Of a DNA stretch of 64,000 nucleotides, positions 860 to 49,614 are shown piece by piece. Source of the DNA: Hyphomonadaceae bacterium BL14 (GTDB taxonomy: Bacteria > Pseudomonadota > Alphaproteobacteria > Caulobacterales > Maricaulaceae); the NCBI GenBank assembly GCA_027627705.1, contig CP091242.1, positions 110,075 to 174,074 on the forward strand. Reading direction: 5' to 3'. Below the pieces are notes generated by a model. The model did no database searches, was not told the origin of the DNA, and saw only the letters and a list, made by a program, of their open reading frames with translations. The first letter of the stretch is position 1; each line of letters starts with the position of its first letter. Position numbers and translations under genes: made by a program.

Positions 860-1998
860 GCGAGGCAGCGTTCAGGTCAGCGGCTCTCGCTGCCGGCGCG
901 CTGGCGCTGGAATGGGACGCGGTTACGCAAACGCTCACCCTGTCAGGCGACGCGAGCGCCATGGGCCTGGCCGGCGTGGCCGGGGCCGGTTGCCTGGCGG
1001 CGCTGGGCGAGCGCCTGGCACCGGGTGACCGGGCTGCGCTTGGAGCGCTCGGCGCGGCCCGCGAGCTGGACGTGCGCCTGCGCCTGGTGGGTGAGGACCG
1101 GCGCCTGCGGCTGGTGCGCCTGATCGGAAAAAGCGAAGCGGGGGTCTGGCGCGGCCTGATCCTGCCAGCCGGTGTGACGCCGGAGGACGGGCTTGAGCGC
1201 CTCGACCTGGAGGCCGATTTGTGCGCGGCGCTGGACACCGGCGCGATCACTGCCCATCACCAACCCATTGTATCTCTGGCCGGCCGGCACCTGGCCGGGT
1301 TCGAGGCGCTGGCGCGCTGGGTGCGCCCTGATGCCAGCGTCATGCGCGCCGATGATTTTGTGCCGCTGGCGCTGGAGCTTGGCCTCGCCGGTCAGATCGG
1401 GACGGCTGTGCGCGCAGCGGCGGCGGCCGATGCCGCCGCCTGGCGCGCGCTGGTACCGGACGCCAACGCTTTGTTCGTCGCCGCCAACGCTACGGCGGGC
1501 GAGATTTGCGATGCCGGTTTTGCCGATGCGCTGATCGCGACCGTGGAGGCGGCGGGCCTGCCTGCCCGCGCCTTCAAGCTGGAGATTACCGAAACGGAAA
1601 TCATGCGCGATCCCGATGCCGCCGAACGGGCCATGCAGGCGCTTAAATCGGCCGGGTTCTCGCTCGCGCTGGATGATTTCGGGACCGGATATTCCTCGCT
1701 GGCCCGGCTCGACCGCTTTCCCTTCGACACGGTCAAGGTCGACCGCTACTTCGTGCGCGCAGCAGGCGCGGATGCGTCGGCGCGCGCCATCATCTCATCG
1801 GTGGTGCGCATCGCCCACAGCTATGGCATGGGCGTCGTGGCCGAGGGCGTGGAAACCGAAGCGGACGCGGTTTTGTGCGCCGAGCTAGGCTGTGATCTGG
1901 CCCAGGGCTTCCGCTTTGCGCGCGCCCTGTCCGGCGACGCGGCGGGGGAAGCGGTGGTGAGCGGCGTGGCGGGGCGGTTCCTCGCGCCCGTTGCCTGA
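856..1998 (+). CDS. EAL-domain cyclic-di-GMP phosphodiesterase
   Basis: A 380-residue protein. Residues 1-125 are poorly conserved and may be a degenerate sensory domain; residues 130-375 form an EAL domain. Catalytic signatures are visible: FEALARW (the EAL motif), EITETEI, LALDDFGTGYSSL (loop 6 Asp pair), DTVKVD and VVAEGVET. The metal and general-base residues therefore look intact, so it should hydrolyse c-di-GMP to pGpG. The usual V-N-x-S strand reads VAANATA, a mild deviation. No GGDEF domain, receiver or membrane segment is present, so it is likely cytoplasmic. c-di-GMP turnover controls motility and polar development in this group, but no partner gene is adjacent. It overlaps the upstream acetyltransferase gene and converges on rnhA five bases downstream. 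Confidence 0.88.
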   Translation: MSEAAFRSAALAAGALALEWDAVTQTLTLSGDASAMGLAGVAGAGCLAALGERLAPGDRAALGALGAARELDVRLRLVGEDRRLRLVRLIGKSEAGVWRGLILPAGVTPEDGLERLDLEADLCAALDTGAITAHHQPIVSLAGRHLAGFEALARWVRPDASVMRADDFVPLALELGLAGQIGTAVRAAAAADAAAWRALVPDANALFVAANATAGEICDAGFADALIATVEAAGLPARAFKLEITETEIMRDPDAAERAMQALKSAGFSLALDDFGTGYSSLARLDRFPFDTVKVDRYFVRAAGADASARAIISSVVRIAHSYGMGVVAEGVETEADAVLCAELGCDLAQGFRFARALSGDAAGEAVVSGVAGRFLAPVA

Positions 1999-2002
1999 CC
2001 GG

Positions 2003-2464
2003 TCAGGTTTCAGCGGCGTCCACCGGACCGTTCAGAGTTTTGATTGCGGCGCGCGCCAGGGCGTCGGCGCGCTCGTTCTCGGGATGGCCGGCATGGCCCT
2101 TGACCCATTCCCAGACGATCTCGTGGCGGGCCGTGGCTGCATCGAGCCGCTTCCAGAGGTCCTCGTTCTTCACCGGCTTCTTCGCTGAGGTCTTCCAGCC
2201 ATTGGACTTCCAGGCGTTCATCCAGCGCATCACACCGTCGCGCACATAGGTGGAATCGGTCACCAGCCGCACCCGGCAGGGGCGCTTTAGCGTTTCCAGC
2301 GCCACGATCGCGGCCATCAGCTCCATGCGGTTATTGGTGGTGTCTGCCTCCCCGCCGGACAGCTCACGCTCCCTGCCGGCATACTCCAGCAGCGCACCCC
2401 AGCCGCCGGGGCCCGGATTGCCTGAACAGGCGCCGTCGGTGTGGATGACGACGGTCTGGCTCAA
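2003..2464 (-). CDS. rnhA: Ribonuclease HI
   Basis: A 153-residue protein of standard RNase HI length. The catalytic acidic residues are visible in [17 protein letters not shown] (first Asp), NNRMELMAA (Glu), LVTDSTYV (Asp) and NERADALAR (last Asp), together with the basic-protrusion region [17 protein letters not shown]. It removes the RNA strand of RNA-DNA hybrids during replication and repair. The start overlaps the end of ispH by four bases on the same strand, so the two form an ispH-rnhA transcription unit. This pairing is common in alphaproteobacteria. Confidence 0.97.
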
Positions 2465-3405
2465 GCCACTTCCCGGGGTAGTTTGAACACCACATCCTCG
2501 CGCGCCACGGTCACTTCGCGAATGGTGATTGCGTAGCGCCCGGCCACCGCCGCGATCAAATCCTCAACCAGGTCCTCGGGCGCGCTGGCACCTGCGGAGA
2601 CGCCCAGCGTGGTGACTCCGTCCAGCCACGCCCAGTCAATCTCGTCAGCGCTGGGGACCAGATGCGCGGCGCGGGCCCCGGCTTTGAGCGCCACTTCGAC
2701 GAGGCGCACCGAGTTGGATGAGTTGGCCGCGCCCACCACCAGCACCAGGTCTGCATCCGCGCCGATCGCCTTGACCGCCGCCTGGCGGTTGGTGGTGGCG
2801 TAGCAGATGTCTTCCTTGTGCGGCGCAGCCATGGCGGGAAAGCGCGCCTGCAGGGCGCTGACAATCTCGGCGGTGTCATCCACCGACAGCGTGGTCTGGG
2901 TCACGAAGGCAAGATTGCCCGGATCGCGCGGGGTGAAGGCTTGTGCATCCGCTACGGTCTCGATCAGGTGAATGGCGCCATCGGGCAGCTGGCCCAGCGT
3001 CCCGACCACTTCGGGGTGGCCGGCATGGCCGATCAGCAGAATTTCCTTGCCTGCCTTGTGATGGCGCTCCGCCTCGACATGGACTTTGGAGACCAGCGGG
3101 CAGGTCGCGTCGACATAGAGCAGATTGCGCCGGGCAGCCTCGTGGGGCACGCGCTTGGGCACGCCATGGGCGGAAAACACGACGGGGCGGTCATCGGGGC
3201 AGTCGTCAAGCTCCTTGACGAACACCGCGCCCATGGTCTTGAGCCGGTTGACCACATGCTTGTTGTGCACGATCTCATGGCGCACATAAACCGGCGCGCC
3301 ATAGCGCTCCAGCGCCTTCTCGACGATCTGGATCGCCCGGTCCACGCCGGCGCAGAAGCCGCGCGGGGCGGCGAGCAGAACGGTCAGGGCAGGTTTGGCG
3401 GTCAT
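2461..3405 (-). CDS. ispH: 4-hydroxy-3-methylbut-2-enyl diphosphate reductase
   Basis: A 314-residue IspH/LytB. The three cysteines that hold the 4Fe-4S cluster are visible in [22 protein letters not shown] and ICYATTNRQ. Substrate-binding signatures [25 protein letters not shown] and ANSSNSVRL are also present. It carries out the last step of the non-mevalonate (MEP) isoprenoid pathway, making IPP and DMAPP from HMBPP in the cytoplasm. It is the first gene of a two-gene minus-strand unit with rnhA. The length is normal and nothing is missing. Confidence 0.97.
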
Positions 3406-3562
3406 CGCAGTCCTCTGTCAGCCGGCGCGGGCGGGCGTTGCCCTTCGCGCGCGCGCGTCGTAGAGACGTCTACCAGACCCGGCCCGCCCCGCAAGGGTGC
3501 GCCGGACGAAGTCATCGGCGGCGCCGCCCGGCGCCGCGCTCTCAGGTCCGGGACTTTTCGTC

Positions 3563-4153
3563 ATGCGTTTCGCCGTCATCAGCCTCGCCGCCGCCGCCCT
3601 GACCCTCTCCGGCTGCCAGGGAGTGCGGAACTCGCTGAGCGGACCGCAACCCAATCCGGGACCCTGCCCGAACGCCCTGTCGCTCTATGACGCCCACCGG
3701 ATCGTCAATTTCGCCGGCCCGGACATCGTCTACGGCAATGTGGGCTTTACCGGTGAGATTCTCAATGTGGTCAGCAGCTGCACCTATGATGACCGGGCGG
3801 CGACCCCGATCGACATGGAGATGGGCATGCGCCTGGGCTTTGGCCGCGGCCCGGCAGCGATCGGCGACAGCGAGACCTACGAGCTGTTCATCACCGTGGT
3901 GCGCCTGGACCCTCAGCGTAATTTTATGGCTGTGATCCACCGGGAAAGCTTTCAGGTCACGGCAAATTTTCCGGCGGGCGTTGACCGGGTCGAGATCGTC
4001 GAGGAGTTCTCGTCGATCCGCATTCCGCGGGTGGAGCGGGACACTTCGGGCGTCAATTTCGAGGTGCTGGTCGGCTTCGAACTGACCGACGAGCAGCTGG
4101 AGTTCAACCGGTCTGGCATGCGGTTCCGTGTCAATGCCGGTCAGGACGGCTAG
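3563..4153 (+). CDS. Putative lipoprotein of unknown function
   Basis: A 196-residue protein starting MRFAVISLAAAALTLSGCQG, a lipoprotein signal peptide whose lipobox ends LSGC at Cys18. The mature part has two further early cysteines (GPCPNAL and SSCTYDD) and a beta-rich pattern, with RVERDTSGVNFEVLVGFEL near the C-terminus. I do not recognise a named family. It is probably anchored in the inner or outer membrane facing the periplasm. The upstream in-frame extension has no ribosome binding site and would bury the signal peptide, so the ATG at 3563 was chosen. It lies nine bases before argS and may be cotranscribed with it, without an obvious functional link. Confidence 0.75.
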   Translation: MRFAVISLAAAALTLSGCQGVRNSLSGPQPNPGPCPNALSLYDAHRIVNFAGPDIVYGNVGFTGEILNVVSSCTYDDRAATPIDMEMGMRLGFGRGPAAIGDSETYELFITVVRLDPQRNFMAVIHRESFQVTANFPAGVDRVEIVEEFSSIRIPRVERDTSGVNFEVLVGFELTDEQLEFNRSGMRFRVNAGQDG

Positions 4154-4162
4154 AGCGCGCCC

Positions 4163-5926
4163 ATGACGTCCCTTGTTGAAGACCTGACCGGCGCGGTCTC
4201 GGCCGCGTTCGAGTTGGCGGGCCTGCCGCCCGAGTTGGGCGGTGTGATCGAAAGCGACCGCCCCGATCTTGCGCCGTATCAGTGCAATGGCGCGCTGGCG
4301 GCCGCCAAAGCGGCCAAGGCCAATCCGCGCGCACTGGCAGCTTCCATCGCCGAGCACCTCAAGGCTTTGCGGCCTGACCTGAGCGTTGAAATCGCCGGGC
4401 CGGGCTTCCTCAATCTGATCCCGCCTGCATCGCTTTACGCCAATCGGGCGCAAGCGCTGTCCGCTGATCCCCGCACCGGCGCGCGCCTGGCACCCGATCC
4501 GCTGCGGGTCGTCATCGACTTTGGCGGCCCCAACGTCGCCAAGCCCATGCATGTGGGCCATCTGCGCTCCAGCGTGATCGGCGACAGCCTGCAGCGCCTC
4601 ATGCGCTTTCTTGGACACAGTGTGACCAGCGATATCCATCTGGGCGATTGGGGCCTGCAGATGGGCCAGCTGATCACCGAGCTGGAAGACGAGCAGCCAG
4701 ATCTTCCTTACTTTGACGCCGGATTTTCAGGACCTTATCCGGAGGCCGCGCCGGTCACCATTGATGATCTGGCCCGGCTCTATCCGCAGGCCAGCGCCAA
4801 GGGCAAGGTCGACCCGGCGCGCCAGGAGCGCTCGCGTCACGCGACGGCAGAGCTGCAGGCCGGCCGGCCGGGCTACCGCGCGCTGTTGCGCCATTTCATC
4901 TCGGTGTCGATTGCGGCACTGAAAGTGGATTTCAATGATCTCGGCGTGCATTTCGACCTTTGGAAGGGCGAGAGCGACGTCAATGACCGGATTGCCGGTA
5001 TGGTCGCCGATCTTCGAAAGCGCGCGATTGCTGAAGAGAGCGATGGCGCACTGGTGATCCGGGTGGCGCGTGAGGATGACAAGAAGGATCTGGCGCCCCT
5101 CATTCTGGTCAGCTCGCAAGGCTCGGCGCTCTACGCCACCACCGATCTGGCCACCATTCTGGAGCGCCGCCGCGAGCTGGATCCCGACCTGATGCTTTAC
5201 GTGGTCGACCTGGGCCAGTCGGACCATTTCGAACAGGTGTTCCGCGCCGCTGTTCTGGCGGGCCTGGCTGAAGACGGCGGGCTGGAGCATGTGAAGTTCG
5301 GGACGGTCAATGGCCCGGACGGCAAGCGCCTGCGTACCCGCGATGGCGGCACGTTCCGCCTGGCTGACCTGATCGGTCAGGCCCGCGAGCGCGCCCGCGC
5401 CCGTCTGACCGAGGCGGGGCTGGGAACCGAACTGCCGGCCGAGGCTTTCGAGGATGTGGCGCGCAAGGTCGCCAATGCGGCGATCAAATTCTCCGACCTG
5501 CAGAACGTGCGCACCACCAATTACGTCTTTGATCTGGACCGGTTCGTCAGCTTTGAGGGCAAGACCGGTCCGTACTTGCTGTATCAGGCCGTGCGCATTG
5601 GCTCGCTCTTGCGCAAGGCCGCAGGCGAGGGTCTGAAAGATGGCCCGGTGCAGATCAGCCATGACGCCGAGGCCGCGCTGGTGCGCCGGCTGGACGGATT
5701 CGATGCGGCGGTGCAACGGGCCGAAAGCGGGCGTGCGCCGCACATATTGTGCGAGCACGCCTTCAACCTCGCCCAGGCGTTTTCCGCCTTCTACACCCAG
5801 TGCCCGATCCTGCCGGAGAAGGACGAAGCGGTTCGCGCCGCCCGCCTGACCCTGGCGCGTACCACACTGACCCAGTTGCGCACCGTGCTGGACCTGATCG
5901 GCCTGGATGTGCCGGAGCGGATGTAG
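4163..5926 (+). CDS. argS: Arginyl-tRNA synthetase
   Basis: A 587-residue class I aminoacyl-tRNA synthetase. An N-terminal Arg-tRNA synthetase additional domain (about residues 1-100) is followed by the HIGH motif as HVGHL at residues 130-134 within NVAKPMHVGHLRSS. The catalytic core contains YVVDLGQSDHFEQVF, and the loop GTVNGPDGKRLRTRDGGT occupies the KMSKS position. The C-terminal DALR anticodon-binding domain ends LRTVLDLIGLDVPERM. Length is typical. It charges tRNA(Arg) in the cytoplasm. The next feature downstream is the glycine riboswitch, and I see no strong terminator between the two. Confidence 0.97.
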   Translation: MTSLVEDLTGAVSAAFELAGLPPELGGVIESDRPDLAPYQCNGALAAAKAAKANPRALAASIAEHLKALRPDLSVEIAGPGFLNLIPPASLYANRAQALSADPRTGARLAPDPLRVVIDFGGPNVAKPMHVGHLRSSVIGDSLQRLMRFLGHSVTSDIHLGDWGLQMGQLITELEDEQPDLPYFDAGFSGPYPEAAPVTIDDLARLYPQASAKGKVDPARQERSRHATAELQAGRPGYRALLRHFISVSIAALKVDFNDLGVHFDLWKGESDVNDRIAGMVADLRKRAIAEESDGALVIRVAREDDKKDLAPLILVSSQGSALYATTDLATILERRRELDPDLMLYVVDLGQSDHFEQVFRAAVLAGLAEDGGLEHVKFGTVNGPDGKRLRTRDGGTFRLADLIGQARERARARLTEAGLGTELPAEAFEDVARKVANAAIKFSDLQNVRTTNYVFDLDRFVSFEGKTGPYLLYQAVRIGSLLRKAAGEGLKDGPVQISHDAEAALVRRLDGFDAAVQRAESGRAPHILCEHAFNLAQAFSAFYTQCPILPEKDEAVRAARLTLARTTLTQLRTVLDLIGLDVPERM

Positions 5927-33606: not shown

Positions 33607-35439
33607 ATGGGCTCCTGGCGCAGGAAAATCCGGGCGATCAATGTCCGCACCCAGCCGCGCCGCGCGGCACCGGGCGAGCGCGCGCCTGCGGGCATGTCGC
33701 GCCAGGTCCATGTGGCCGGCGGACGCGCCGGTCAGGAGGCGCGCCAGCGCGGCCGCCTGCGCATCGCGGGCCTGGTGCTGGCGGCCGGGTTCATCATTGT
33801 CGCCGCGCGGGCTCTGGATGTGTCGCTGGTAAGTGGCGCGACGGCAGGGCCAGGCTTGCAGGCGGCAGGCGAAGCCACCGTGCGCCGTGCGGCGCTGACG
33901 GACCGCCATGGCCAGGTGCTGGCCTCGACCCTGGATTTCCACGCCGCCTATGCAAATGGCCAGCACATCCCGCGCGAGCTGGTGGACGAGACGGTGGCGC
34001 GCTTGCAGAGCGTGCTGCCGGATATCGACGCGGAACGGATGGCCGCGCGCATGCGCGCGCGCAACGCCTACATCCTCATCGCGGACGGTCTGACGCCGCG
34101 CGCGCGCCAGTCCATCCATCATCTCGGCCTGCCCGGTGTGTATTTTCAGACCCAGCCCGGGCGCGTCTATCCGCGCCAGAGCGCGGCGGCCCATGTGGTC
34201 GGCTATGCCGGGCGTGAAATGCGCGGCCTGTCCGGTGCGGAGCTGGCGTTTGACGCCGAGCTCAATGATCCGTCGGGCCGGCCCGTCGCCCTGTCCATCG
34301 ACCTGACCGCCCAGCACCGGGTGGAGAGCGTGCTGGCCGAGCACATGGCACGCCATCAGGCCCAGGGCGCAGCCGCGATCCTGATGCGCGTGGGCACGGG
34401 CGAAGTCATCGCCATGGCCTCGCTGCCGGACTATGACGTGAACCGCTATACCGAGGTTCGCCCGTCTGCGGCGGACGGTGTCGATCCGCGCTTCAATCGC
34501 GCCAGCGTGGGCGTGTACGAACTGGGTTCGGTGTTCAAGCCGCTGGCCCTGGCCGCAGGGCTGGAGAGTGGCCGGGTCGCGCTCGATGACCTGTTCGATG
34601 TGCGCCAGCCGCTCCGGGTGGCCGGACACTCCATCGATGATTTCCGGGGTCAGCGCCGGGAGCTGACCGCGCGCGAGGTGATCATCCACTCGTCCAATAT
34701 CGGCTCTGCCCTGATGGCCCGGCAAATGGGCGCAGAGACCCTGCGGCCCTTCTATGAGGCGCTGCGTCTGCATGAGCGTCCGCCGCTGGAATTGTCGGAA
34801 AGCGCCCATCCGCGCATGCCGCGCAACTGGGGCCGGACCGAGACCATGACGGCCGCCTTCGGTCACGGCCTGGCCGTCAGCCCGCTGGCGCTGACGTCGG
34901 CCTATGCGGCCCTGGCCAATGGCGGGGTCTACGTCCCGCCGACGCTGCGCCCGGTGGCACCCGGCGAGATCATTGCAGGTGATCCGGTGATGAGCGCGCG
35001 CACCGCCGCCCAGGTGCTGGCGGTGATGCGCGAGACGGTTGCCCGCTCTCAGGCCGGCGGTCCAGACGTGGAGGGCCTGGCGGTAGCGGGCAAGACCGGC
35101 ACGGCGCTGCAGGCCGGTCCCGGCGGCTATGACCGCGATCACCGGGTGACGACATTCGTGGCGGTGTTCCCGTTTGATGATCCCCAATACGTGCTGACCG
35201 TGACCTTCGACCGCCCCCGTCCGAGCCGCGCGACCCATGGATTCGCCACAGCCGGCTGGAACGCCGCCCCCGCTGCCGGTGACATTCTGCGCCAGCTGGC
35301 CGGCGTACTGGAACTGCGCCGCCGCGACGCGGACCCGTCTGCGCGCGCCGAGCAGGTCGCCGCCCTGTTCGCTCCGCGTGTGCGGGCCGTGGTGCCATCA
35401 GAAGAGCCCGTCCTTCTCACCTCCGGGGAGCCGCAATGA
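33607..35439 (+). CDS. ftsI: Peptidoglycan D,D-transpeptidase FtsI (PBP3)
   Basis: A 610-residue class B penicillin-binding protein. A basic cytoplasmic tail of about 55 residues is followed by one membrane helix (IAGLVLAAGFIIVAARAL). The periplasmic part has the dimerisation domain (ADRHG-like ALTDRHGQVLAS) and the transpeptidase domain with the catalytic motifs Ser308-Val-Phe-Lys311 (LGSVFKPL), Ser362-Ser-Asn364 and Lys496-Thr-Gly (AGKTGTAL). It makes septal crosslinks in the divisome with FtsW. It begins immediately after the ftsL stop and overlaps murE by four bases. The catalytic residues look intact. Confidence 0.96.
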   Translation: MGSWRRKIRAINVRTQPRRAAPGERAPAGMSRQVHVAGGRAGQEARQRGRLRIAGLVLAAGFIIVAARALDVSLVSGATAGPGLQAAGEATVRRAALTDRHGQVLASTLDFHAAYANGQHIPRELVDETVARLQSVLPDIDAERMAARMRARNAYILIADGLTPRARQSIHHLGLPGVYFQTQPGRVYPRQSAAAHVVGYAGREMRGLSGAELAFDAELNDPSGRPVALSIDLTAQHRVESVLAEHMARHQAQGAAAILMRVGTGEVIAMASLPDYDVNRYTEVRPSAADGVDPRFNRASVGVYELGSVFKPLALAAGLESGRVALDDLFDVRQPLRVAGHSIDDFRGQRRELTAREVIIHSSNIGSALMARQMGAETLRPFYEALRLHERPPLELSESAHPRMPRNWGRTETMTAAFGHGLAVSPLALTSAYAALANGGVYVPPTLRPVAPGEIIAGDPVMSARTAAQVLAVMRETVARSQAGGPDVEGLAVAGKTGTALQAGPGGYDRDHRVTTFVAVFPFDDPQYVLTVTFDRPRPSRATHGFATAGWNAAPAAGDILRQLAGVLELRRRDADPSARAEQVAALFAPRVRAVVPSEEPVLLTSGEPQ

Positions 35440-36896
35440 TGACCCGCCGCCTTGCCGATCTTCTGCCCGACGGGCTGGCTGCGCCGCAGGGCGCGCACGG
35501 GCTGATCGTCACGGGTCTGGCCCTGGACAGCCGCAAGGTGCGGCCCGGCGATCTGTTCGCCGCGCTGCCCGGCGTGCGCGTGGACGGTCGCCAGTTCATC
35601 GACGCCGCCATCGAAAAGGGTGCCGTCTGCGTGCTGGCACCGCGCGGCACATCCGCGCCGGTTCCGGTCATCGAGACCGATGATCCCGCCGGGGCGCTGG
35701 CGGCGATCGCCGCGGCATTCCATCCGCGCCAGCCCGGACACATCGCTGCGGTCACCGGCACCAATGGCAAAAGCTCCACCGTGGAGTTCCTGCGCCAGAT
35801 CTGGGCGTCGGCGGGCATCAGCGCGGCCGCGCTGGGCACGCTCGGCGTGACACGCGAAGCCGGGCGCACGGAGGTGGGTTACACCACGCCGGATGCCATC
35901 GCGCTGCATGCGGCGCTGGATGCGCTGGCAGGCGAGGGGGTGTCGCACCTGGCCATGGAAGCGTCGTCCCACGGGCTCAAGCAGCGGCGCATGGATGGCG
36001 TGCGGGTAGCGGTCAGCGCGTTTACCAACCTCACCCAGGACCATCTCGACTATCACCCGGACTTTGAAGATTACTTCGCCGCCAAGATGCGGCTGTTCAC
36101 AGCGCTGACGCCGGCAGGCGGGCGCGTGGTGATCAATATGGATTCCGACTGGTCGGCTCGGGTGGAGCAGACGGCTCTGGCCGCCGGGCTGGAGGTGATG
36201 ACGCTGGGCTGGCGCGGCCGGGATCTGGCTGTGCGTGAAATCACGCCGCGTCCGGCCAGCCAGGCGGTGCGCTTTGCGTGGCGCGGCGGGGAGCGCGTGG
36301 CCGAGTTGCCGCTAATCGGCGAGTTCCAGACCGCCAATGCGCTGGGGGCCGCGGTGATGGCGATTGCGTCAGGCATGGACGCGGACACAGCCTTTGCGGC
36401 GCTGGAAAACCTGACGGGCGTGGCCGGTCGCCTGCAACAGGCGGGCATTACGCGTCAGGGCGCGCCGATCCTGCTCGACTACGCCCACACGCCTGACGGG
36501 CTGGACAAGCTGCTGCGCGCGGCGCGCCCCCATACGCGCGGGCGGGTCGTGCTGGTGTTCGGCGCGGGCGGCGACCGCGACCCCACCAAGCGCGCGAAGA
36601 TGGGTGCCGTGGCGGCCCAGCTGGCAGACGTCTGCATCGTGACCGACGACAATCCGCGCAGCGAGGATCCGGCTTCGATCCGGGCGGCGATCCTGTCGGC
36701 GTGTCCGGGCGCGCAAGAGATCGGCGACCGTGAAAGCGCGATGCGCGCCGGCATCGCCATGCTGGAGGCGGGCGACACGCTGCTGATCGCGGGCAAGGGC
36801 CACGAGATCGGCCAGATTGTCGGCGACCGTATCATTCCGTTTGACGAGCCGGCCATCGTCACGCGCCTGCTGCAAGAGCTGGAGACGCGATCATGA
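35436..36896 (+). CDS. murE: UDP-MurNAc-tripeptide synthetase, meso-DAP adding
   Basis: A 486-residue MurE. The ATP-binding loop TGTNGKSSTVEFL has its lysine at residue 112. The DNPR motif for meso-diaminopimelate is present in TDDNPRSEDP. Other signatures are MEASSHGLKQRRMDG and GAGGDRDPTKRAKMG. It adds meso-DAP to UDP-MurNAc-L-Ala-D-Glu. This means the pathway assumes the dipeptide-plus-Glu product that MurD makes. Overlap ATGA-type with ftsI and murF. Confidence 0.97.
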   Translation: MMTRRLADLLPDGLAAPQGAHGLIVTGLALDSRKVRPGDLFAALPGVRVDGRQFIDAAIEKGAVCVLAPRGTSAPVPVIETDDPAGALAAIAAAFHPRQPGHIAAVTGTNGKSSTVEFLRQIWASAGISAAALGTLGVTREAGRTEVGYTTPDAIALHAALDALAGEGVSHLAMEASSHGLKQRRMDGVRVAVSAFTNLTQDHLDYHPDFEDYFAAKMRLFTALTPAGGRVVINMDSDWSARVEQTALAAGLEVMTLGWRGRDLAVREITPRPASQAVRFAWRGGERVAELPLIGEFQTANALGAAVMAIASGMDADTAFAALENLTGVAGRLQQAGITRQGAPILLDYAHTPDGLDKLLRAARPHTRGRVVLVFGAGGDRDPTKRAKMGAVAAQLADVCIVTDDNPRSEDPASIRAAILSACPGAQEIGDRESAMRAGIAMLEAGDTLLIAGKGHEIGQIVGDRIIPFDEPAIVTRLLQELETRS

Positions 36897-38302
36897 CCGC
36901 GCCGCTGTGGACCTCTGCCGAGGCCGCGCTCGCCACAGGCGGGCACCCGATCGGTGAGGGCTGGGCTGCCACCGGCGTCTCCATCGACACCCGCACGCTG
37001 CAGCCGGGCGATCTGTTTGTGGCGCTGAGCGATGTCCGCGACGGCCATGAGTTCGCGCAAGCCGCGCTGGACAAGGGCGCGTGCGCGGTGCTGGTCTCAC
37101 GCGCCGATTGCTGTAACGGCCCGCGCCTGGTGGTTGATGACACGCTGGCAGCCTTGCAGGCGCTGGGTCAGGGCGCGCGCCTGCGGTCACCGGCGCTGCG
37201 CATCGGCGTCACCGGGTCGGTGGGCAAGACCAGCGTGAAAGAGGCGCTGGCCGTGGTGCTGCGCGCGGCCGGTCCGGCCCACTGGAGCGTGGCCAGTTAC
37301 AATAATCACTGGGGCGTGCCGCTGACCCTGGCGCGCATGCCGCAAGAGACACGCGCGGCGGTGTTTGAAATGGGCATGAACCATGCCGGCGAGATCGCGG
37401 CCCTGTCGGCGCAGGTGCGCCCCCATGTGGCGCTGATCACCAAAATCGCGCCTGCGCATCTGGAAAATCTCGGCTCCATGGAGGCCATTGCTGACGCCAA
37501 GGCGGAGATATTCACCGGGCTGGAGGTCGACGGCGTGGCGGTCATCCCCGCTGACGATGATTTTGCCCCGCATCTGACGCAAGCGGTGAACGCCTCGCAC
37601 GCCGCCTTCCTGATCAATTTCGGCCTGGCGCGTGGTGCCGCTGTGCGGGTGCTGAGCTATACGGCGGACGGGGAAGGCGGATCGGGTGACATGGACGTTA
37701 TGGGCAAGGTGCGCCCGTTCCGGCTCAGCCAGCCGGGTGCCCATCAGGCGGTGAATGCCGCCGGCGTGGTGGCGGCCGCGTTTGCCGCGGGCATTGATGC
37801 TGAACTGGTGCTGGATGCGCTGGCCGGGCTTGCCGCCCAGGCGGGCCGGGGTGCGCGCTTTGATGTGCAGCTGAGCGACGGGCGCGCCCTGACGCTGATC
37901 GATGACAGCTATAACGCCAACCCCGCCTCCATGCGCGCGGCGTTCGCCAGCCTGTGCGCGCGTACCCCGTCTGCGGGCGCACGGCGCATCGCGGTGCTGG
38001 GCGAAATGCTGGAGCTGGGCCCGGATGCGTCGGCGCTGCATGCGGCGCTCGCCGGTCCGCTGGCAGAGGCGGGCGTGAGCGCCGTGATCGGCGTTGGCAA
38101 AGGCATGGGCGCGCTTCTGGAGGCGTTGCCCTCACAGGTCGAAGCGGTTCACGCTGCAGACTGGAGCGCTGGCATTGAACAGCTGGACGCACTGGCGCGC
38201 GAGGGGGATGTCGTGCTCATCAAGGGCTCCAATGCCTCGGGCGTTCACAGGATCGCCGCTGCCCTGAAATCCGCGCGCGCCGGCGCGTCAACACAGGCCT
38301 GA
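36893..38302 (+). CDS. murF: UDP-MurNAc-tripeptide D-alanyl-D-alanine ligase
   Basis: A 469-residue MurF. The ATP loop GVTGSVGKTSVKEAL is intact, and the family signatures SYNNHWGVPLTLAR, FEMGMNHAGEIAALS and DSYNANPASMRAA are visible. It adds D-Ala-D-Ala to UDP-MurNAc-tripeptide in the cytoplasm. It overlaps murE by four bases and lies seven bases before mraY. Length is typical. Confidence 0.96.
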   Translation: MTAPLWTSAEAALATGGHPIGEGWAATGVSIDTRTLQPGDLFVALSDVRDGHEFAQAALDKGACAVLVSRADCCNGPRLVVDDTLAALQALGQGARLRSPALRIGVTGSVGKTSVKEALAVVLRAAGPAHWSVASYNNHWGVPLTLARMPQETRAAVFEMGMNHAGEIAALSAQVRPHVALITKIAPAHLENLGSMEAIADAKAEIFTGLEVDGVAVIPADDDFAPHLTQAVNASHAAFLINFGLARGAAVRVLSYTADGEGGSGDMDVMGKVRPFRLSQPGAHQAVNAAGVVAAAFAAGIDAELVLDALAGLAAQAGRGARFDVQLSDGRALTLIDDSYNANPASMRAAFASLCARTPSAGARRIAVLGEMLELGPDASALHAALAGPLAEAGVSAVIGVGKGMGALLEALPSQVEAVHAADWSAGIEQLDALAREGDVVLIKGSNASGVHRIAAALKSARAGASTQA

Positions 38303-38308
38303 ACGCCC

Positions 38309-39409
38309 ATGCTGTACCTGTTGCTGTCACCGCTCGCTGAACAATTCACCCTGTTCAATGTCCTCAATTACCTGACCTTCCGCACCGGCGCGGCGATCAT
38401 GACCGCCTTCGTGGTGGCGCTGGTGGTGGGCATGCCGTTCATCGGATGGCTCAGGAAGCAGGGCTCTCAGCCGATCCGCGATGACGGCCCTGAAAGCCAT
38501 GTGCTGACCAAGGCCGGGACGCCCACCATGGGCGGCTTTATCATCCTGACCGGCATCGTGTCGGGCACGCTGCTCTGGGGCGATTTGTCCAACGCCTATC
38601 TGTGGGTGGTGATGTTCGTGACCATCAGCTACGGCGCGATCGGCTTCCTCGATGACTGGCGCAAGGTCACCAAGCGTTCCCACCACGGTCTGTCGGGCAA
38701 GGGCAAGCTGGCGCTGCAGGGCGTGGTGGCGCTGATCGCGGTGATCTGGATGGTCAATCTGCTGGATGGTGCGCCCAATACGCCGGACGATTTCTCCACC
38801 TCGGTTGCAGTGCCCTTTTTCAAAGATGTGCTGATCCCGCTGGGCCTGGTCTTCTTTGCCTTCGGGGTGCTGGTGATTGTCGGAGCCTCCAATGCGGTGA
38901 ACCTCACCGACGGGCTGGACGGGCTGGCCATCGTGCCGGTGATGATCGCGGCGGGCGCGTTCGGCGTGATCGCCTACATGGTCGGGTCATCGGTCTATTC
39001 CAATTACCTGTTTTTGAATTTCACCCCCGGCACCGGCGAGCTGGCCGTGATCTGCGGCGCGATGATCGGCGCCGGGCTGGGCTTTCTCTGGTATAACGCG
39101 CCGCCGGCCATGGTCTTCATGGGCGATACCGGCTCGCTGTCGCTGGGCGGCGCGATCGGCGCCATCGCGGTGGCGGTCAAGCACGAGATCGTCCTGGTCA
39201 TCATTGGCGGGCTGTTCGTGCTCGAAGCCGTGTCGGTGATGGTGCAGGTGGCCAGCTTCAAGCTGACCGGAAAGCGCGTGTTCCTGATGGCCCCCATCCA
39301 CCACCATTTTGAAAAGCTGGGCTGGTCTGAATCCACAATCGTGGTGCGGTTCTGGATCATCGCCTTTGTCCTCGCCCTGATCGGTCTGTCTACGCTGAAG
39401 CTGCGCTAG
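38309..39409 (+). CDS. mraY: Phospho-MurNAc-pentapeptide transferase
   Basis: A 366-residue polytopic membrane enzyme with about ten hydrophobic segments. Conserved catalytic and substrate motifs are [22 protein letters not shown] (Asp-Asp), [13 protein letters not shown] and [11 protein letters not shown]. It transfers phospho-MurNAc-pentapeptide to undecaprenyl phosphate to make lipid I. The next gene has a very strong AAGGAGG ribosome binding site in the 13-base gap after the mraY stop. Confidence 0.97.
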
Positions 39410-39422
39410 CCAAGGAGGCGTC

Positions 39423-40772
39423 ATGATTCCCGTTCGCGCCAGCGGCGAAGGCCGGGCCGCCGTCATGGGCCTGGGCTTGCGCGGGCGTGCCATGGCGCGG
39501 GCTTTGGCGGCGGGCGGCATGGCGGCATCGGGCTGGGATGAGGACGCAGACACACGCGCCGCTGCGGCACGCCACGGCGTGGTGATCGAGGACCCGACGA
39601 CGCGCGACTGGGGCGACCTGTCGGCGCTGGTGATCGACGATGTCAGCCGCCTGGATGGGCCGGAGTCCGGTCCGGTGGGGCTGGCCCGGATCACCGGCAC
39701 GCCGGTCCTCACCGAGTTGGCCCTGTTTGGCCGCGCCCTGACAAGCACCGGTGGCGCGCGCGCGGCTCTGGTCCTGGGCGGCGATAAGGCGGACGCGGCG
39801 GCCGAGCTGGCCGGAGCCTGCCTTTCGCGCTGCGGGCTGGATGTGCGCCGGGGCGGTGCCGGGGTTGCGCTGTTCGACGCGCCGCCGTTGCGCGCCGGGT
39901 CCATCACGCTGATCGCTGCCAGTGCCGCCGAATGCGCGGCCGCGCCGGATTTCCATGCTCACGCCTTGCTGGTCATGGCGGACGCGGCGATCAGCACCGC
40001 TGATCTCGAAGCCCTTGCCATGCGCGTGTCCGGCCCGGTCCTTCTGGACATGGATGCGCCCGACGCCGGCGCGCGTCTGGCGGCGCTGCGCCGTGGCGGC
40101 GTGGATCGCGCGCGCGTGACCGCATGTTCGGGCCGGATGGTGCTGGGCGATGGCTTCTATCTGGTGGGCAGCCGCCTGCATGATGCGCGGTCCGGCGCGC
40201 CGCGCCGCCCGCTTCAGACAGCGGGGCCGGGCCTGGCCGGGCTGACGCCGGGACTGATCGCAGGCGCGGGCGGTCTGGCGCTGGCGCTGGGCGGCGAGCC
40301 CGACGCGCTGGAAGCGGCGATGGCTTTCTTTCCCGGTGTGCAGGGCTGGCGCAACCCTGTGACGGGCCTCGGGCGGGTGCAGGTGTTTGATTATGCGGCC
40401 GCACAAGACCCGAAGACGGCCCTGGCCGGGTTCACCGGCGCCGCACCGATATGGTGGATCGCGCACGCCGGGCTGGACGCGGCCGAGCTGCCCGACACCC
40501 TGCCCGCTGCCCTGCAGGGGGTGATCCTGTGCGGCCCCGATGCGCGCGCGGAGCGGCGTCTGGCATCACGCATGGCCTGCCGTCAGGCGGACAGTCTGGA
40601 CGATGCGCTGGCGCGGTCGCTGCATGCGGCTGCGCTGACCGGCAAGGACGCGCGCATTCTATACGCTCCGTCAACCCGGTGCGGCCCAGAGGAGAGACGG
40701 GTGCGCAGCCAGACCTTCACGGCGGCGCTGGAGCGGCTGACCGGATTGATCCGCAAGGGGCACGCAGCATGA
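39423..40772 (+). CDS. MurD-like protein lacking the Mur-ligase ATP-binding loop (probable pseudoenzyme)
   Basis: A 449-residue ORF in the murD slot between mraY and ftsW, with MurD length. The N-terminal Rossmann part, AVMGLGLRGRAMARAL (residues 13-28), matches MurD. The C-terminal part also lines up: AFFPGVQGW (301-309) for the GLPHR loop, YAAAQDPKTALAGFTGA then PIWWIAHAG (342-350) for DSKATN...YWIAGG, and YAPSTRC (414-420) for LSPACAS. Where MurD has TGTNGK-S/T, this protein has LVLGGDKADAAAEL (116-129); GTN and the Ser/Thr are gone. The ELSSFQL segment is ITLIAASAAEC (161-171), and NxTxDH is missing. It is unlikely to bind ATP as MurD does. AAGGAGG five bases before the ATG and the ATGA overlap with ftsW argue it is expressed. 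Its role is unknown; a scaffold function is inference. Confidence 0.8.
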   Translation: MIPVRASGEGRAAVMGLGLRGRAMARALAAGGMAASGWDEDADTRAAAARHGVVIEDPTTRDWGDLSALVIDDVSRLDGPESGPVGLARITGTPVLTELALFGRALTSTGGARAALVLGGDKADAAAELAGACLSRCGLDVRRGGAGVALFDAPPLRAGSITLIAASAAECAAAPDFHAHALLVMADAAISTADLEALAMRVSGPVLLDMDAPDAGARLAALRRGGVDRARVTACSGRMVLGDGFYLVGSRLHDARSGAPRRPLQTAGPGLAGLTPGLIAGAGGLALALGGEPDALEAAMAFFPGVQGWRNPVTGLGRVQVFDYAAAQDPKTALAGFTGAAPIWWIAHAGLDAAELPDTLPAALQGVILCGPDARAERRLASRMACRQADSLDDALARSLHAAALTGKDARILYAPSTRCGPEERRVRSQTFTAALERLTGLIRKGHAA

Positions 40773-41899
40773 GCCTGACACGGCAGTATTCAAGGGTCCT
40801 GCGTGAGCTCGACAAGCCGCTTCTTGTGGTGATCCTGTGCCTGCTGGGCATGGGGTTCATGCTCGTTTTTGCCGCCAGTCCGGCGGTGTCCAGCGACGCC
40901 GATCCCTTCTTTTATGTGCGCCGTCAGGTGATGTTCATGACCGCGGGTGTGGTCATCATGATGACCGCTGCCGCCTTCTCGCTGACCGGCGTGCGGCGCA
41001 TGTCTGGTCTGGCGCTGCTGGGGTCGCTGGTCTTGCTGGTCCTGGTCCTCGTGGTGGGCCAGCCCATCAACGGCTCCACGCGCTGGCTGCACCTGCCGGG
41101 GTTCTCGCTGCAGCCCAGCGAGATCTTCAAGCCGGCCTTCATCGTGTTCACCGCCTGGCTGTTCAGCGAGGAAGACCGCGGCGCGCCTGCCCCCGGGCGC
41201 CTTCTGGCGCTGGGGATTTACGGCGTGGCGGCGGTGCTTCTGAGGCTGCAGCCCGATATCGGCCAAACCGCGCTGATCACGCTGATTTTTGCCGCAATGC
41301 TGTGGATTGGCGGCCTGTCCTGGCGCTGGACCATCGGGCTGGGTGCCGGCATGGCCGCAGGCGCGGCGGCGGCGGTGAATTTCGTGCCGTACATTCAGAC
41401 CCGCGTTGCCACCTTCCTGTCCAGCGGTGGCGGCCCGCGCAACCAGACCGACATCGCCTTGGATGCCATCGGCAGTGGTGGTCTGTGGGGTCTGGGGCCG
41501 GGAGAGGGGCGCATCAAGCACGTGCTGCCCGAGGCCCACAATGACTATATTTTTGCGGTGGCGGGCGAGGAGTTCGGCGCGCTGGCCATGTTGCTGATCA
41601 TCGCGCTGTACGCGCTTTTGTTCCTGCGCGCCTGGACGCTGGCCATGCGGCTCAATGATCCCTTCGCGCGGCTGGCGACGGCGGGTCTGGCGCTGCTGTT
41701 CGCGCTGCAGGCGCTGGTCAATATTGCGGTCAATCTCGATCTGGCGCCCTCGACGGGCATGACGCTGCCTTTCCTGTCCTATGGCGGCTCGTCCATGCTG
41801 GCGCTGGCCTTCTCGGCGGGGCTGATGCTGGCGCTGACGCGGCACCGGCCCGGTGCCTATAAGCCCATGCGCCAGCGCCTGGTGAGTGCGCCGGCATGA
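40769..41899 (+). CDS. ftsW: Septal peptidoglycan glycosyltransferase FtsW
   Basis: A 376-residue SEDS-family membrane protein with about ten hydrophobic segments. Family signatures are GSTRWLHLPGFSLQPSEIFK, LLRLQPDIGQTALI, GPGEGRIKHVLPEAHNDYIF and the C-terminal PSTGMTLPFLSYGGSSMLA. It polymerises lipid II at the septum with FtsI. The start ATG overlaps the stop of the MurD-like gene (ATGA), and its stop overlaps murG. A much longer in-frame start upstream would be within the MurD-like gene and is rejected. Confidence 0.96.
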   Translation: MSLTRQYSRVLRELDKPLLVVILCLLGMGFMLVFAASPAVSSDADPFFYVRRQVMFMTAGVVIMMTAAAFSLTGVRRMSGLALLGSLVLLVLVLVVGQPINGSTRWLHLPGFSLQPSEIFKPAFIVFTAWLFSEEDRGAPAPGRLLALGIYGVAAVLLRLQPDIGQTALITLIFAAMLWIGGLSWRWTIGLGAGMAAGAAAAVNFVPYIQTRVATFLSSGGGPRNQTDIALDAIGSGGLWGLGPGEGRIKHVLPEAHNDYIFAVAGEEFGALAMLLIIALYALLFLRAWTLAMRLNDPFARLATAGLALLFALQALVNIAVNLDLAPSTGMTLPFLSYGGSSMLALAFSAGLMLALTRHRPGAYKPMRQRLVSAPA

Positions 41900-42984
41900 C
41901 CGGCAAGCGTCTTGTCATGGCGGCAGGCGGCACGGGCGGGCATATTTTCCCGGCGCGCGCGGCAGCTGAAACCCTGATCAAACGCGGCTGGCGGGTGCGC
42001 CTGGTGACCGATGTGCGCGGCGCACGCCACACCGAAGGCTTTCCCGGAGACGGCGTCAGCGTCATCCGCGCGGCCAGCCCGTTCCAGTCCAATCCGCGCC
42101 GGGTGCCCGGTGCGCTGGCAGACCTGGCGGCGGGTCTGCGGGCCACGCGCGCCCTGGTGAAGGATTTCGAGCCGGACGTGGCTGCCGGGTTTGGCGGCTA
42201 TCCCGCCTTTGCGCTTCTGGCCTCGGCGCGCATTGCCTCGCTGCCCTTCGTGATCCATGAGCAGAACGCAGTGCTGGGCCGGGTCAATCGGCTGTTCGCC
42301 AGATCGGCGCACACGGTCGCCTCGGGCTTCGAGCGGCTGGACCGCTTGCCCCGCAAGGCACGCCACGCCGTTACCGGCAATCCGGTGCGCGCTGCCGTTC
42401 TGGTCGCGCGCGACACGCCCTATGCGCCGCCTTCAGACGACGGTGAGATACGGCTTCTGGTGCTGGGCGGCAGTCTGGGCGCGCGCATCCTGTCCGAGAC
42501 GGTGCCCGCTGCCATCGCGCGCCTGCCAGCAGCCCTGCGCGCCCGCCTGGTGGTGGTGCAGCAGACCCGTGATGAAAGTCTGGAGGCGGCCCGCGCCGCT
42601 TATGAAACGGCGGGTGTGCGCGCCGAGCTGTCGGCCTTTTTTGACGATATGGGTGCGCGCTATGCGGCGGCCCACCTGGTGATTTCGCGCGCGGGCGCAT
42701 CATCGGTGTCAGAGCTTGCCGCCATCGGGCGCCCCTCGATTCTGGTGCCGCTGGCGATCGCCATGGACGATCACCAGACCGCCAACGCCCAGGGCCTGGT
42801 GCACGCCGGCGCCGCCGACGCCATGGCCGAGGCCGACCTTACGGCAGACAGCCTGTCACAGCGCCTTGAATCGCTGCTGGCGGACGGCGAAGCTCTCGCC
42901 GCGCGGGCTGCTGCGGCCCGCGGCACCGGCCGGCCCGACGCGCATGAGGCGCTGGCCGATCTCATCGAACGCGCCGCGGAGTAG
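41896..42984 (+). CDS. murG: Lipid II synthase MurG (GlcNAc transferase)
   Basis: A 362-residue GT28 glycosyltransferase. The N-terminal glycine-rich loop AAGGTGGHIFPARAAAE, FGGYPAFALL, HEQNAVLGRVNRLFA and the UDP-GlcNAc site VISRAGASSVSELAAIGRPS are visible. It transfers GlcNAc to lipid I on the inner face of the membrane, making lipid II. It overlaps ftsW by four bases and lies six bases before murC. Confidence 0.97.
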   Translation: MTGKRLVMAAGGTGGHIFPARAAAETLIKRGWRVRLVTDVRGARHTEGFPGDGVSVIRAASPFQSNPRRVPGALADLAAGLRATRALVKDFEPDVAAGFGGYPAFALLASARIASLPFVIHEQNAVLGRVNRLFARSAHTVASGFERLDRLPRKARHAVTGNPVRAAVLVARDTPYAPPSDDGEIRLLVLGGSLGARILSETVPAAIARLPAALRARLVVVQQTRDESLEAARAAYETAGVRAELSAFFDDMGARYAAAHLVISRAGASSVSELAAIGRPSILVPLAIAMDDHQTANAQGLVHAGAADAMAEADLTADSLSQRLESLLADGEALAARAAAARGTGRPDAHEALADLIERAAE

Positions 42985-42990
42985 CGATTC

Positions 42991-44397
42991 ATGCCCCCCA
43001 GAGACCTCGCCGCCGCGGCTTCGCCCGTCCATTTTGTCGGGATTGGCGGGATCGGGATGAGCGGCATCGCCGAGGTGATGCTCAATCTGGGCTATCAGGT
43101 CACCGGGTCGGACATTTCCGAAAGCGCCAATGTGCAGCGCCTGCGGGCCAAGGGCGCGGTCATCCATATCGGCCATGATGGCGAGAACGTCACGGGTGCC
43201 GGGGCGCTGGTGGTGTCCAGTGCCGTGCGCCGGGACAATCCCGAGCTGGTCGCGGCCCGCGCCCGGCGCATCCCGGTGGTGCGCCGCGCCGAAATGCTGG
43301 CCGAGCTGATGCGTCTGAAGCAATGCGTCGCCGTGGCCGGTACCCATGGCAAGACCACCACCACCTCGCTGGTGGCGGCGCTGATGGATGCAGCCGGGTT
43401 CGATCCCACCGTGATCAATGGCGGCATCATCTCGGCCTATGGCTCCAATGCCAAGATGGGCGAAGGCGAGTGGATGGTGGTGGAGGCCGACGAGAGCGAC
43501 GGCTCTTTCCTGAAACTGCGCGGCACGGTGGGCATCATCACCAATATCGATCCCGAGCATATGGAGCATTACGGCGATTTCGACACGCTGCGCGAAGCCT
43601 TCCGGCAATTCGTCGAGAACCTGCCCTTCTACGGCTTCGCCGTGCTGTGCGTGGATCATCCCGAGGTGCAGGCGCTGGCCGCGCGCATCGAGGACCGGCG
43701 CGTGATCACCTATGGATTTTCGCCCCAGGCCGATGTGCGGATCGTCAATCATTCCGGCGACGCTGCGGGGGCCCGCTTTGATCTGCGCTTCCAGGCGCGC
43801 GGTGCCGAGCCGGCTGTCTGGGCGGGCCTGAGCCTGCCCATGATGGGCGAGCACAATGTGCTCAACGCTGCGGCGGCCCTGGCGGTCGTGCAGGCGCTGG
43901 GCGGGCAGGAGGACGAGGCGCGTCAGGGCCTCGCGGGGTTTGCCGGCGTGAAGCGGCGCTTCACCCTGGTGGGCGAGCCCGGCCGCGTGGCGGTGATTGA
44001 TGATTACGGCCACCACCCGGTAGAGATCGCCGCCGTCCTCAAAGCCGCGCGCCAGCGCGCGGGCGAGGGCCGGGTGATCGCCGTGGTCCAGCCTCATCGC
44101 TATACGCGCCTTGCCGATCTGTTCGAGGATTTTTGCACCTGTTTCAACGATGCCGACAGCGTGCTGGTCACGCCGGTCTACACGGCCGGCGAAACGCCCA
44201 TCGAAGGGGCCGATCAGGACAGCCTGGTGGCCGGGCTGCAGCGCCATTCGCACCGCGACGCGTCGGCCACCACGCGCGAGACGCTGGCCGCTGACCTCAA
44301 ATCCCGCATCCAGCCCGGTGATGTCGTGGTGTGCCTGGGTGCCGGCGATATCACCGCCTGGGCGGCGGAGCTGCCTCAACGGCTGGAGCAGGGGTGA
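42991..44397 (+). CDS. murC: UDP-N-acetylmuramate-L-alanine ligase
   Basis: A 468-residue MurC. It has [17 protein letters not shown] at the start, an intact ATP loop [11 protein letters not shown] (Lys121), [24 protein letters not shown] and [14 protein letters not shown]. It adds L-Ala to UDP-MurNAc. All the Mur-ligase signatures that are missing from the MurD-like protein are present here, which makes a sequencing artefact across the cluster unlikely. Its stop overlaps the murB start by one base (TGATG). Confidence 0.97.
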
Positions 44398-48453: not shown

Positions 48454-49578
48454 TCAGAACTCCGCTTCCTCCCAGTCGGGGACATCGTCTTCATCGGCGC
48501 CGATATGGCGCAGATACGACATCACCAGCGAGGAATAGGGCGGCACGGGGATCGAGCTGGCGGTGAAGCTGCCGTCGGGATCGATGGTGTCGCGAATCTC
48601 GAAATGGAGATGGTCAGTCGTCATGGAGCGCTGGCACGACCCGCCGCGCCACCCAATGCCGAACCAGTTGGAGACCCGGCCGATGGGATCTCCGGCGCTG
48701 ACGTCCTGACCGGGCTCCACCTGCAGCGCCGAGCGGGTGCACACGCTGGGCAGGTTGGAAGCGGTGCACTGGGCCGGCGTGGTGAGCTGGGTGAGGTCGC
48801 AATCTTCCCAGTGCTCCAGATGCAGATACCAGTAATTCCGGCCGTCATCGCCGCGCAGGCGCACGGTCATGGACGCGATGGAGGAGATATAGCCGTCGGC
48901 CACCGCCACCGCCATCTGGCGGTCCTCCAGATTGAAATTACGGGTGCAGACCTCTGGCCGGATGTCCTGGCCGACATGGTGGCCCGTGCTGTTGTCCGGG
49001 CAAAACAGGCTGCGGGTGGACGAGCTGCGGATTTCGCAGAAATTGTCCTCGAACGGGTAGTCGAAATTGCGCGCGTCGCACTCGCCCGATCCGCCGGCAC
49101 CACCGACGCCGGACCCGCTGCCGCCGGGGCGGTAAACCTGGGTGTTGGCGTAGCCGGCGCCATCGAGGGGCCAGGTCAGGTTCGGCGCGAACACGAAATT
49201 GCGCGACAGATCGCCGGACCCTGCCCAGCCGGTACCGGAGCGGCCGGCCACGTCCACATTATTGCGATAGTCGAAGGTGGGCAGATCGCCCGGCGGATTC
49301 CAGACGAACAGCGTCCCGTCCGGGTCGATTGGTCCGGAGCCGGGCGCCTCGGGCGCTGGCTCTTCTGGCCCCGGTTCCTCCGGAGCGGGCTCTTCGGGAG
49401 CAGGTTCTTCGGGCTCGGGCTCTTCTGGCCCAGGCTCTTCGGGGCCGGGTTCTTCCGGCGCTGGCTCTTCCGGTCCAGGAGGCGGCGGTGGAGCGGGTGG
49501 AAGGGTGTCCAGCGGATAGAAGACCAGCGCCGCGCCTCCGGCCACGGCCACAACCGCCGCTAGCACATAGTCACGCAT
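48454..49578 (-). CDS. M23-family peptidase-like protein with Pro-Glu repeat spacer
   Basis: A 374-residue protein. Residues 4-20 are a hydrophobic helix (signal anchor). Residues about 26-80 are a low-complexity spacer of repeated (A/G/E)PEEP units. Residues about 150-166 are Gly/Ser-rich. The C-terminal part has the LytM/M23 zinc motif as HHVGQD (His201...Asp205), a middle YLHLEHW (His253) and the final DHLHFEIRD (His323, His325), so the metal site looks complete. Ten or so cysteines in this part suggest disulfides in the periplasm. M23 proteins cut peptide crosslinks or activate amidases in division. The gene converges on ftsA. GAGGGGGG precedes the ATG at 49578. Confidence 0.82.
   Translation of the reverse strand: MRDYVLAAVVAVAGGAALVFYPLDTLPPAPPPPPGPEEPAPEEPGPEEPGPEEPEPEEPAPEEPAPEEPGPEEPAPEAPGSGPIDPDGTLFVWNPPGDLPTFDYRNNVDVAGRSGTGWAGSGDLSRNFVFAPNLTWPLDGAGYANTQVYRPGGSGSGVGGAGGSGECDARNFDYPFEDNFCEIRSSSTRSLFCPDNSTGHHVGQDIRPEVCTRNFNLEDRQMAVAVADGYISSIASMTVRLRGDDGRNYWYLHLEHWEDCDLTQLTTPAQCTASNLPSVCTRSALQVEPGQDVSAGDPIGRVSNWFGIGWRGGSCQRSMTTDHLHFEIRDTIDPDGSFTASSIPVPPYSSLVMSYLRHIGADEDDVPDWEEAEF
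49343..49477. repeat. Nine 15-bp coding repeats (Pro-Glu spacer)
   Basis: Nine 15-base units of the type GGCTCTTCTGGCCCC lie in tandem, in frame within the M23-like gene (minus strand). They encode (A/G/E)PEEP. Units vary at third codon positions, and repeat-number change would alter only spacer length. Confidence 0.8.
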
Positions 49579-49614
49579 GGCTCTCACACCCCCCTCAGAT
49601 CAGGTCCGGAGTTC

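Follow-up and report, generated by a model that had tools for sequence, protein, structure and literature searches.

A MurD-derived putative pseudoenzyme between mraY and ftsW in Oceanicaulis/Alkalicaulis, in genomes carrying a MurD2-type ligase and a MurL homologue

The window, the whole stretch of 64,000 nucleotides from Hyphomonadaceae bacterium BL14 that was analyzed here, contains a cluster of genes for peptidoglycan synthesis and cell division in which the place of murD, between mraY and ftsW (hereafter the slot), is occupied by an ORF of 449 aa. The main features, all on the + strand, are the following.

35436..36896, +, murE, intact
36893..38302, +, murF, intact
38309..39409, +, mraY, upstream neighbour of the slot gene (TIGR00445, 389 bits)
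39412..39418, +, AAGGAGG, ribosome-binding site of the slot gene, read from the sequence
39423..40772, +, slot gene, flanked by mraY and ftsW, coding for a MurD-derived pseudoenzyme of 449 aa
39774..39797, +, LGGDKADA (residues 118-125), the lost Mur-ligase ATP loop
40769..40772, +, ATGA, where the stop of the slot gene lies under the start of ftsW, read from the sequence
40769..41899, +, ftsW, downstream neighbour (best model TIGR02614, 322 bits, cut-off 337.5)
41896..42984, +, murG (TIGR01133, 259 bits)
42991..44397, +, murC, intact

An earlier note on this DNA had described the ORF as having the position and length of MurD in an operon whose MurC, MurE and MurF keep their signatures, with a strong AAGGAGG ahead of it and an ATGA coupling to ftsW, and all of these features are confirmed. 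Among the 15 genomes of the genus sampled (Oceanicaulis/Alkalicaulis), 11 carry the slot gene; the AAGGAGG is exact in four of these 11, and the 4-base overlap with ftsW is found in all six from which ftsW was extracted. Given this overlap, the slot protein would be made in step with FtsW. Further downstream, an ORF at 48454-49587 converges after ftsA (a gene named here by its order) and appears M23 peptidase-like by eye, with no NCBIfam match at E 1e-10.

The slot protein scores 11.3 bits against the MurD model TIGR01087, below the cut-off of 211.95. A GxxGK(S/T) motif is absent anywhere in all 11 slot proteins of the genus, as are the residues corresponding to K115, E157, N178, H183, K198, R302, D317 and K348 when these are aligned to E. 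coli MurD, to which identity is 12-18% and the alignment register is not certain throughout. The same eight positions are kept throughout the 15 intact slot MurDs that our residue table includes from other genera; ten further panel genomes lie outside that table. The SPG triad that contacts UDP is also gone in 11 of 11. The loss of the ATP loop, central to the earlier note, is thus common to every slot protein of the genus, and the alignment with MurD of relatives that it had proposed finds the site intact in a genome outside the genus, G023. An assembly error or frameshift, against which the note had already argued, is ruled out, as separate assemblies of the relatives show the identical loss.

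The MurD-like fold that had been read from the sequence is also what structure prediction gives, although 20 of the 46 rows in the underlying alignment carry Mur_ligase domains, so that the model is drawn towards MurD. In comparisons with the PDB, the best 50 matches comprised Mur ligases and cyanophycin synthetase, which still leaves room for other folds. The 11 slot proteins of the genus form a single clade (100/100) with a long stem branch (1.32), whose sister is G023's intact slot MurD (99/95). A BLASTP comparison between the slot protein and the second MurD-type ligase of the same genome (see below) gave nothing significant (best E 0.061). The slot protein is best explained as a descendant of the original MurD of the genus. 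It resembles an ordinary MurD in gene position, length, predicted three-domain fold and ancestry, but has neither the P-loop, the carbamyl-lysine, the catalytic His, Asp and Lys, nor the UDP triad or the family score. Sequences distantly related to the slot protein (28-31%) also occur on two Parvibaculum MAG contigs (L122 and L123).

The genome consists of one contig of 3.03 Mb and contains five PF08245 matches, corresponding to MurE, MurF, MurC, FolC and a second MurD-type ligase. Two genes outside the window are relevant here.

C1:354547-355824, second MurD-type ligase with MurD2 features (TIGR01087, 265 bits)
C1:1419696-1420988, MurL homologue (NF041275, 257 bits, E 1.3e-76)

The second ligase has the core of a Mur ligase, with an intact P-loop (GTKGKST) and K198 kept, and carries Glu and Arg at the positions of E. 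coli D182 and K348. According to excerpts of PMC8788868, the equivalent residues set L-Glu versus D-Glu specificity in Xanthomonas MurD2, and passages of PMC5808125 are also cited for them. This ligase is above the murD cut-off in 14 of the 15 genus genomes, the exception being G004 (a draft of 1.7 Mb and 240 contigs), where none was found. All 14 extracted sequences have Arg at the K348 position; in that of G007, the first specificity position is still Asp.

The second gene matches NF041275 over its full length (positions 22-445 of 447), and we term it a homologue because its score lies below the cut-off of 700 of this Xanthomonadales model, which none of the 398 genomes of the order passes. 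MurL homologues are present in all 15 genus genomes; within our 41-genome panel, G023 and G036 also have one, and the remaining 24 genomes lack it. The murL and murD2 genes are neighbours in Xanthomonas, an arrangement that does not strictly define MurD2; they are adjacent in eight of the 14 genus genomes having both, whereas in the BL14 genome they lie ~1.06 Mb apart.

MurI gave no match in any of the 15 genus genomes, nor did PF01177 in the BL14 genome, which rules out that MurI supplies D-Glu to a second MurD of the canonical kind. A D-amino acid aminotransferase appears unlikely as the source of D-Glu in the MurL-positive genomes, judging by one model, whose cut-off of 277.45 is passed by none of the 41 panel genomes: matches of at least 190 bits occur in 19 of the 41, and in none of the 17 that are MurL-positive (best 153.5). 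MurI went unmatched in 24 panel genomes, 17 of them MurL-positive and seven MurL-negative; six of these seven show an aminotransferase match of 247-277 bits, a score suggesting that the aminotransferase may supply their D-Glu, and the seventh, the fragmented draft G016, shows one of 149. Taken together, 40 of the 41 panel genomes have MurI (17 genomes, 13 above cut-off), MurL (17) or an aminotransferase match with a high score (6).

In the genus, D-Glu is very probably installed as in Xanthomonas, with MurD2 adding L-Glu and MurL carrying out the epimerization, a pathway known from Xanthomonas and from some alpha- and actinobacteria (PMC8788868, in excerpt). Such a route would make the old MurD redundant. 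The BL14 genome is like Xanthomonas in having a second ligase with Glu/Arg, a MurL homologue and no MurI match, but in the window's genus the displaced murD persists as a conserved non-catalytic protein. The earlier note had offered two alternatives, a second MurD elsewhere or a new way of adding D-Glu, and each was right in part: the genome search that it suggested for a further Mur ligase does find one, with GTKGKST and the MurD2 residue pattern, but the route in which it would act was already described (PMC8788868, in excerpt). Its operon position and predicted fold might still suggest that the slot protein is itself a D-Glu ligase working through a rearranged active site, which we regard as extremely improbable, since the P-loop and the catalytic lysine, histidine and aspartate are gone, MurI is absent where MurD2 and MurL are present, and one clade of the genus survives without the slot gene.

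This clade comprises the four of the 15 genus genomes in which the gene is deleted, the other 11 having a degenerate MurD. The distance from the mraY stop to the first ftsW start is reduced there to 53 (G007), 40 (G008), 52 (G014) and 9 (G004) bases. The four group together (100/99) in a tree built from MurC, MurE and MurF of 13 genomes, so that one deletion event suffices, and the placement of the group within the genus has a support of 80/85. The slot gene is not indispensable everywhere, as this clean deletion attests. In G023, an intact slot MurD coexists with MurL and a second ligase, and MurI gave no match. Its MurD2 is very distant from that of the genus in a tree of low resolution, where 2 of 12 inner branches are starred, and may represent a separate acquisition; we therefore view this genome as a parallel early stage and not as a proven intermediate. 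On its contig L092 (positions 1669-5856), murL, murD2 and an Mpl-like ORF are clustered. In another genome, G024 (C78:16420-17876), the slot murD appears in pieces in the murD search, one with an internal TAA, despite the presence of MurI.

Selection on the slot gene was estimated through dN/dS by the simple NG86 method. The ratio is 0.23 (0.18-0.32) for G000-G012, 0.24-0.28 for five further pairs among G000, G012, G013 and G001, 0.45 (0.35-0.56) for G009-G006 and 0.48 (0.39-0.62) for G000-G009, with intervals below 1 in all eight of these unsaturated pairs, and 0.13 for G002-G003, where dS is saturated. Corresponding values are 0.04-0.16 for mraY and 0.07-0.24 for ftsW (eight pairs each), 0.12-0.29 for murL (nine pairs), and 0.03, 0.07 and 0.05 for three pairs of intact murD (the last with a dS of 2.1), a fourth pair being saturated. 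When four pairs were split by domain, the C domain was the least constrained in each, reaching at most 0.67 (0.43-0.97) in G009-G006, where it approaches relaxed evolution. Between G000 and G012, the closest pair, change at second codon positions is lower than that at third positions by a factor of 3.6 (0.076 vs 0.272), whereas in neutral simulations it is higher, with a mean of 1.5-6.1 stops per gene and just 0 to 39 stop-free runs of 200 per setting. None of the 11 slot genes has a stop codon inside the match, and four pairs (G000-G012, G000-G001, G009-G006 and G002-G003) align without gaps across the whole gene. With dN/dS below 1, fewer changes at second than at third positions and no stops, the slot protein is constrained at the protein level, less so than an active MurD.

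These data bear on two other explanations. A slowly decaying pseudogene without present function could account for a dN/dS several times that of intact murD, for the long stem branch and for the deletion in one clade, but it is hard to reconcile with open frames in all 11 genomes, gapless alignments, intervals below 1, the bias against second-position change in the closest pair and the rarity of stop-free genes under neutrality, and we judge it very unlikely. Alternatively, the frame could be kept purely in cis, letting ribosomes or transcripts run on from mraY into ftsW while the protein is idle, which would agree with the overlap with ftsW wherever this was measured; we give this little credence too, because the amino acids themselves are under selection, beyond the openness of the frame, and four genomes of the genus live without the frame.

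Across the order, MurL is present in 35 of 398 genomes, 20 of which belong to a second family (f5), and the slot MurD is degenerate in 16 of these 20 (15 clearly, and G150 partly). One further genome, G212, has an intact slot MurD, and the other three have no murD after mraY: in G088 an ftsW-like ORF begins 166 bases after mraY, while none was seen there in G137 and G184, where the cluster may be broken. No MurI above cut-off was found in these 20 genomes or in G023 (0/21), with four weak partial matches of 24-28 bits. All 16 degenerate proteins retain the P-loop Lys and have lost K319, 15 have lost H183 (retained in G150), and 14 have lost the Lys of column 198 (present in G036 and G127); the 15 clearly degenerate ones all keep K115 and D317, and 13 of them R302. 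Constraint is seen here as well (dN/dS 0.06-0.34 in five pairs, a sixth being saturated). The f5 slot proteins group in a clade of their own (100/99), within which the intact G212 is nested; this indicates that the loss in f5 was an event separate from that in the window's genus, and G150 may represent a third one.

In a sample of 398 genomes from the whole phylum, 20 are MurL-positive, including the BL14 genome. Among the other 19, an ftsW-like ORF directly follows mraY in 17, so that retention of a dead MurD appears exceptional in the sampled MurL genomes outside the order; G455 shows neither an ftsW-like ORF nor a murD there. An intact-looking slot murD with GTNGKT is present in one MurL-positive genome outside the order (G505, L175).

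Which parts of the protein are retained differs between the two groups. Canonically conserved columns were mapped onto E. coli MurD where possible, which gave 15, 63 and 45 for the three domains from the N-terminal one onwards; the genus retains 71%, 25% and 28% of these, respectively, and f5 55%, 53% and 44%. This bias towards the N domain in the genus but not in f5 provides no common clue to a partner. The slot protein might instead have gained a new ligand-binding or catalytic activity, a view to which the good conservation of the Rossmann-like N-terminal domain in the genus would lend itself, as would the retention of K115, D317 and R302 in f5, where ATP may still bind; with the nucleotide site and the SPG triad gone throughout the genus, we find it unlikely.

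A non-catalytic role in wall assembly would find a parallel in Thermotoga, where, according to excerpts of PMC6420597 and PMC4929429, MurG binds MurD, MurE and MurF, MurD is reported to bind MurG and MreB, and either of the latter two is a possible scaffold; the three ligases show no mutual binding without MreB or MurG (PMC4929429, in excerpt). Such contacts are a possible reason for the retention of a MurD body in the slot protein, although the Thermotoga ligase is an ordinary MurD. Under this scenario, another enzyme pair, MurD2/MurL, would have taken over the job of MurD; the slot MurD would then have lost its catalytic residues while keeping its predicted fold under purifying selection; and, as the least certain step, it would have been kept for its binding to partners in the Mur/MraY/MurG/FtsW assembly of the cytoplasm, where it would serve as a structural or regulatory subunit whose synthesis is coupled to that of MraY and FtsW. 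The structural role imagined in the earlier note, that of holding such partners together, fits the purifying selection and the published MurD contacts with MurG and MreB (PMC6420597 and PMC4929429, in excerpt), but any such contacts of the slot protein itself are putative, and the gene is deleted in one clade. Taken as a whole, displacement of the original MurD by MurD2/MurL and its retention as a non-catalytic part of the assembly, in a role that we infer, is in our opinion a likely explanation.

In the open literature, as far as listings and the beginnings of abstracts go, we found neither a description of a MurD pseudoenzyme nor any work on MurD from this genus. The MurD2/MurL pathway was already known, and is extended here to a genus that the excerpts of PMC8788868 do not list; a dead MurD that is conserved as a protein and evolved at least twice is new within the literature searched. 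One practical consequence is that the annotation 'MurD' in these genomes can denote an inactive protein, five of 28 matches lacking the Pfam domain being so named by their source. It has been proposed that Mur ligases, besides being enzymes, belong to a larger complex, two roles that are inseparable where the enzyme is essential. The ATP-contact residues kept in f5 leave room for a version that may depend on nucleotide. We tentatively entertain, at somewhat less than even confidence, the broader idea that MurD has a non-catalytic role in wall assembly at the membrane side, worth keeping even once its chemistry is superfluous, and that two families of one alphaproteobacterial order independently made pseudoenzymes of it following the takeover by MurD2/MurL, one without a nucleotide site in the window's genus and one in f5 that may be an ATP-responsive switch. 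In these bacteria, evolution seems to have split both roles, with catalysis passing to MurD2/MurL and the body of the old MurD being retained.
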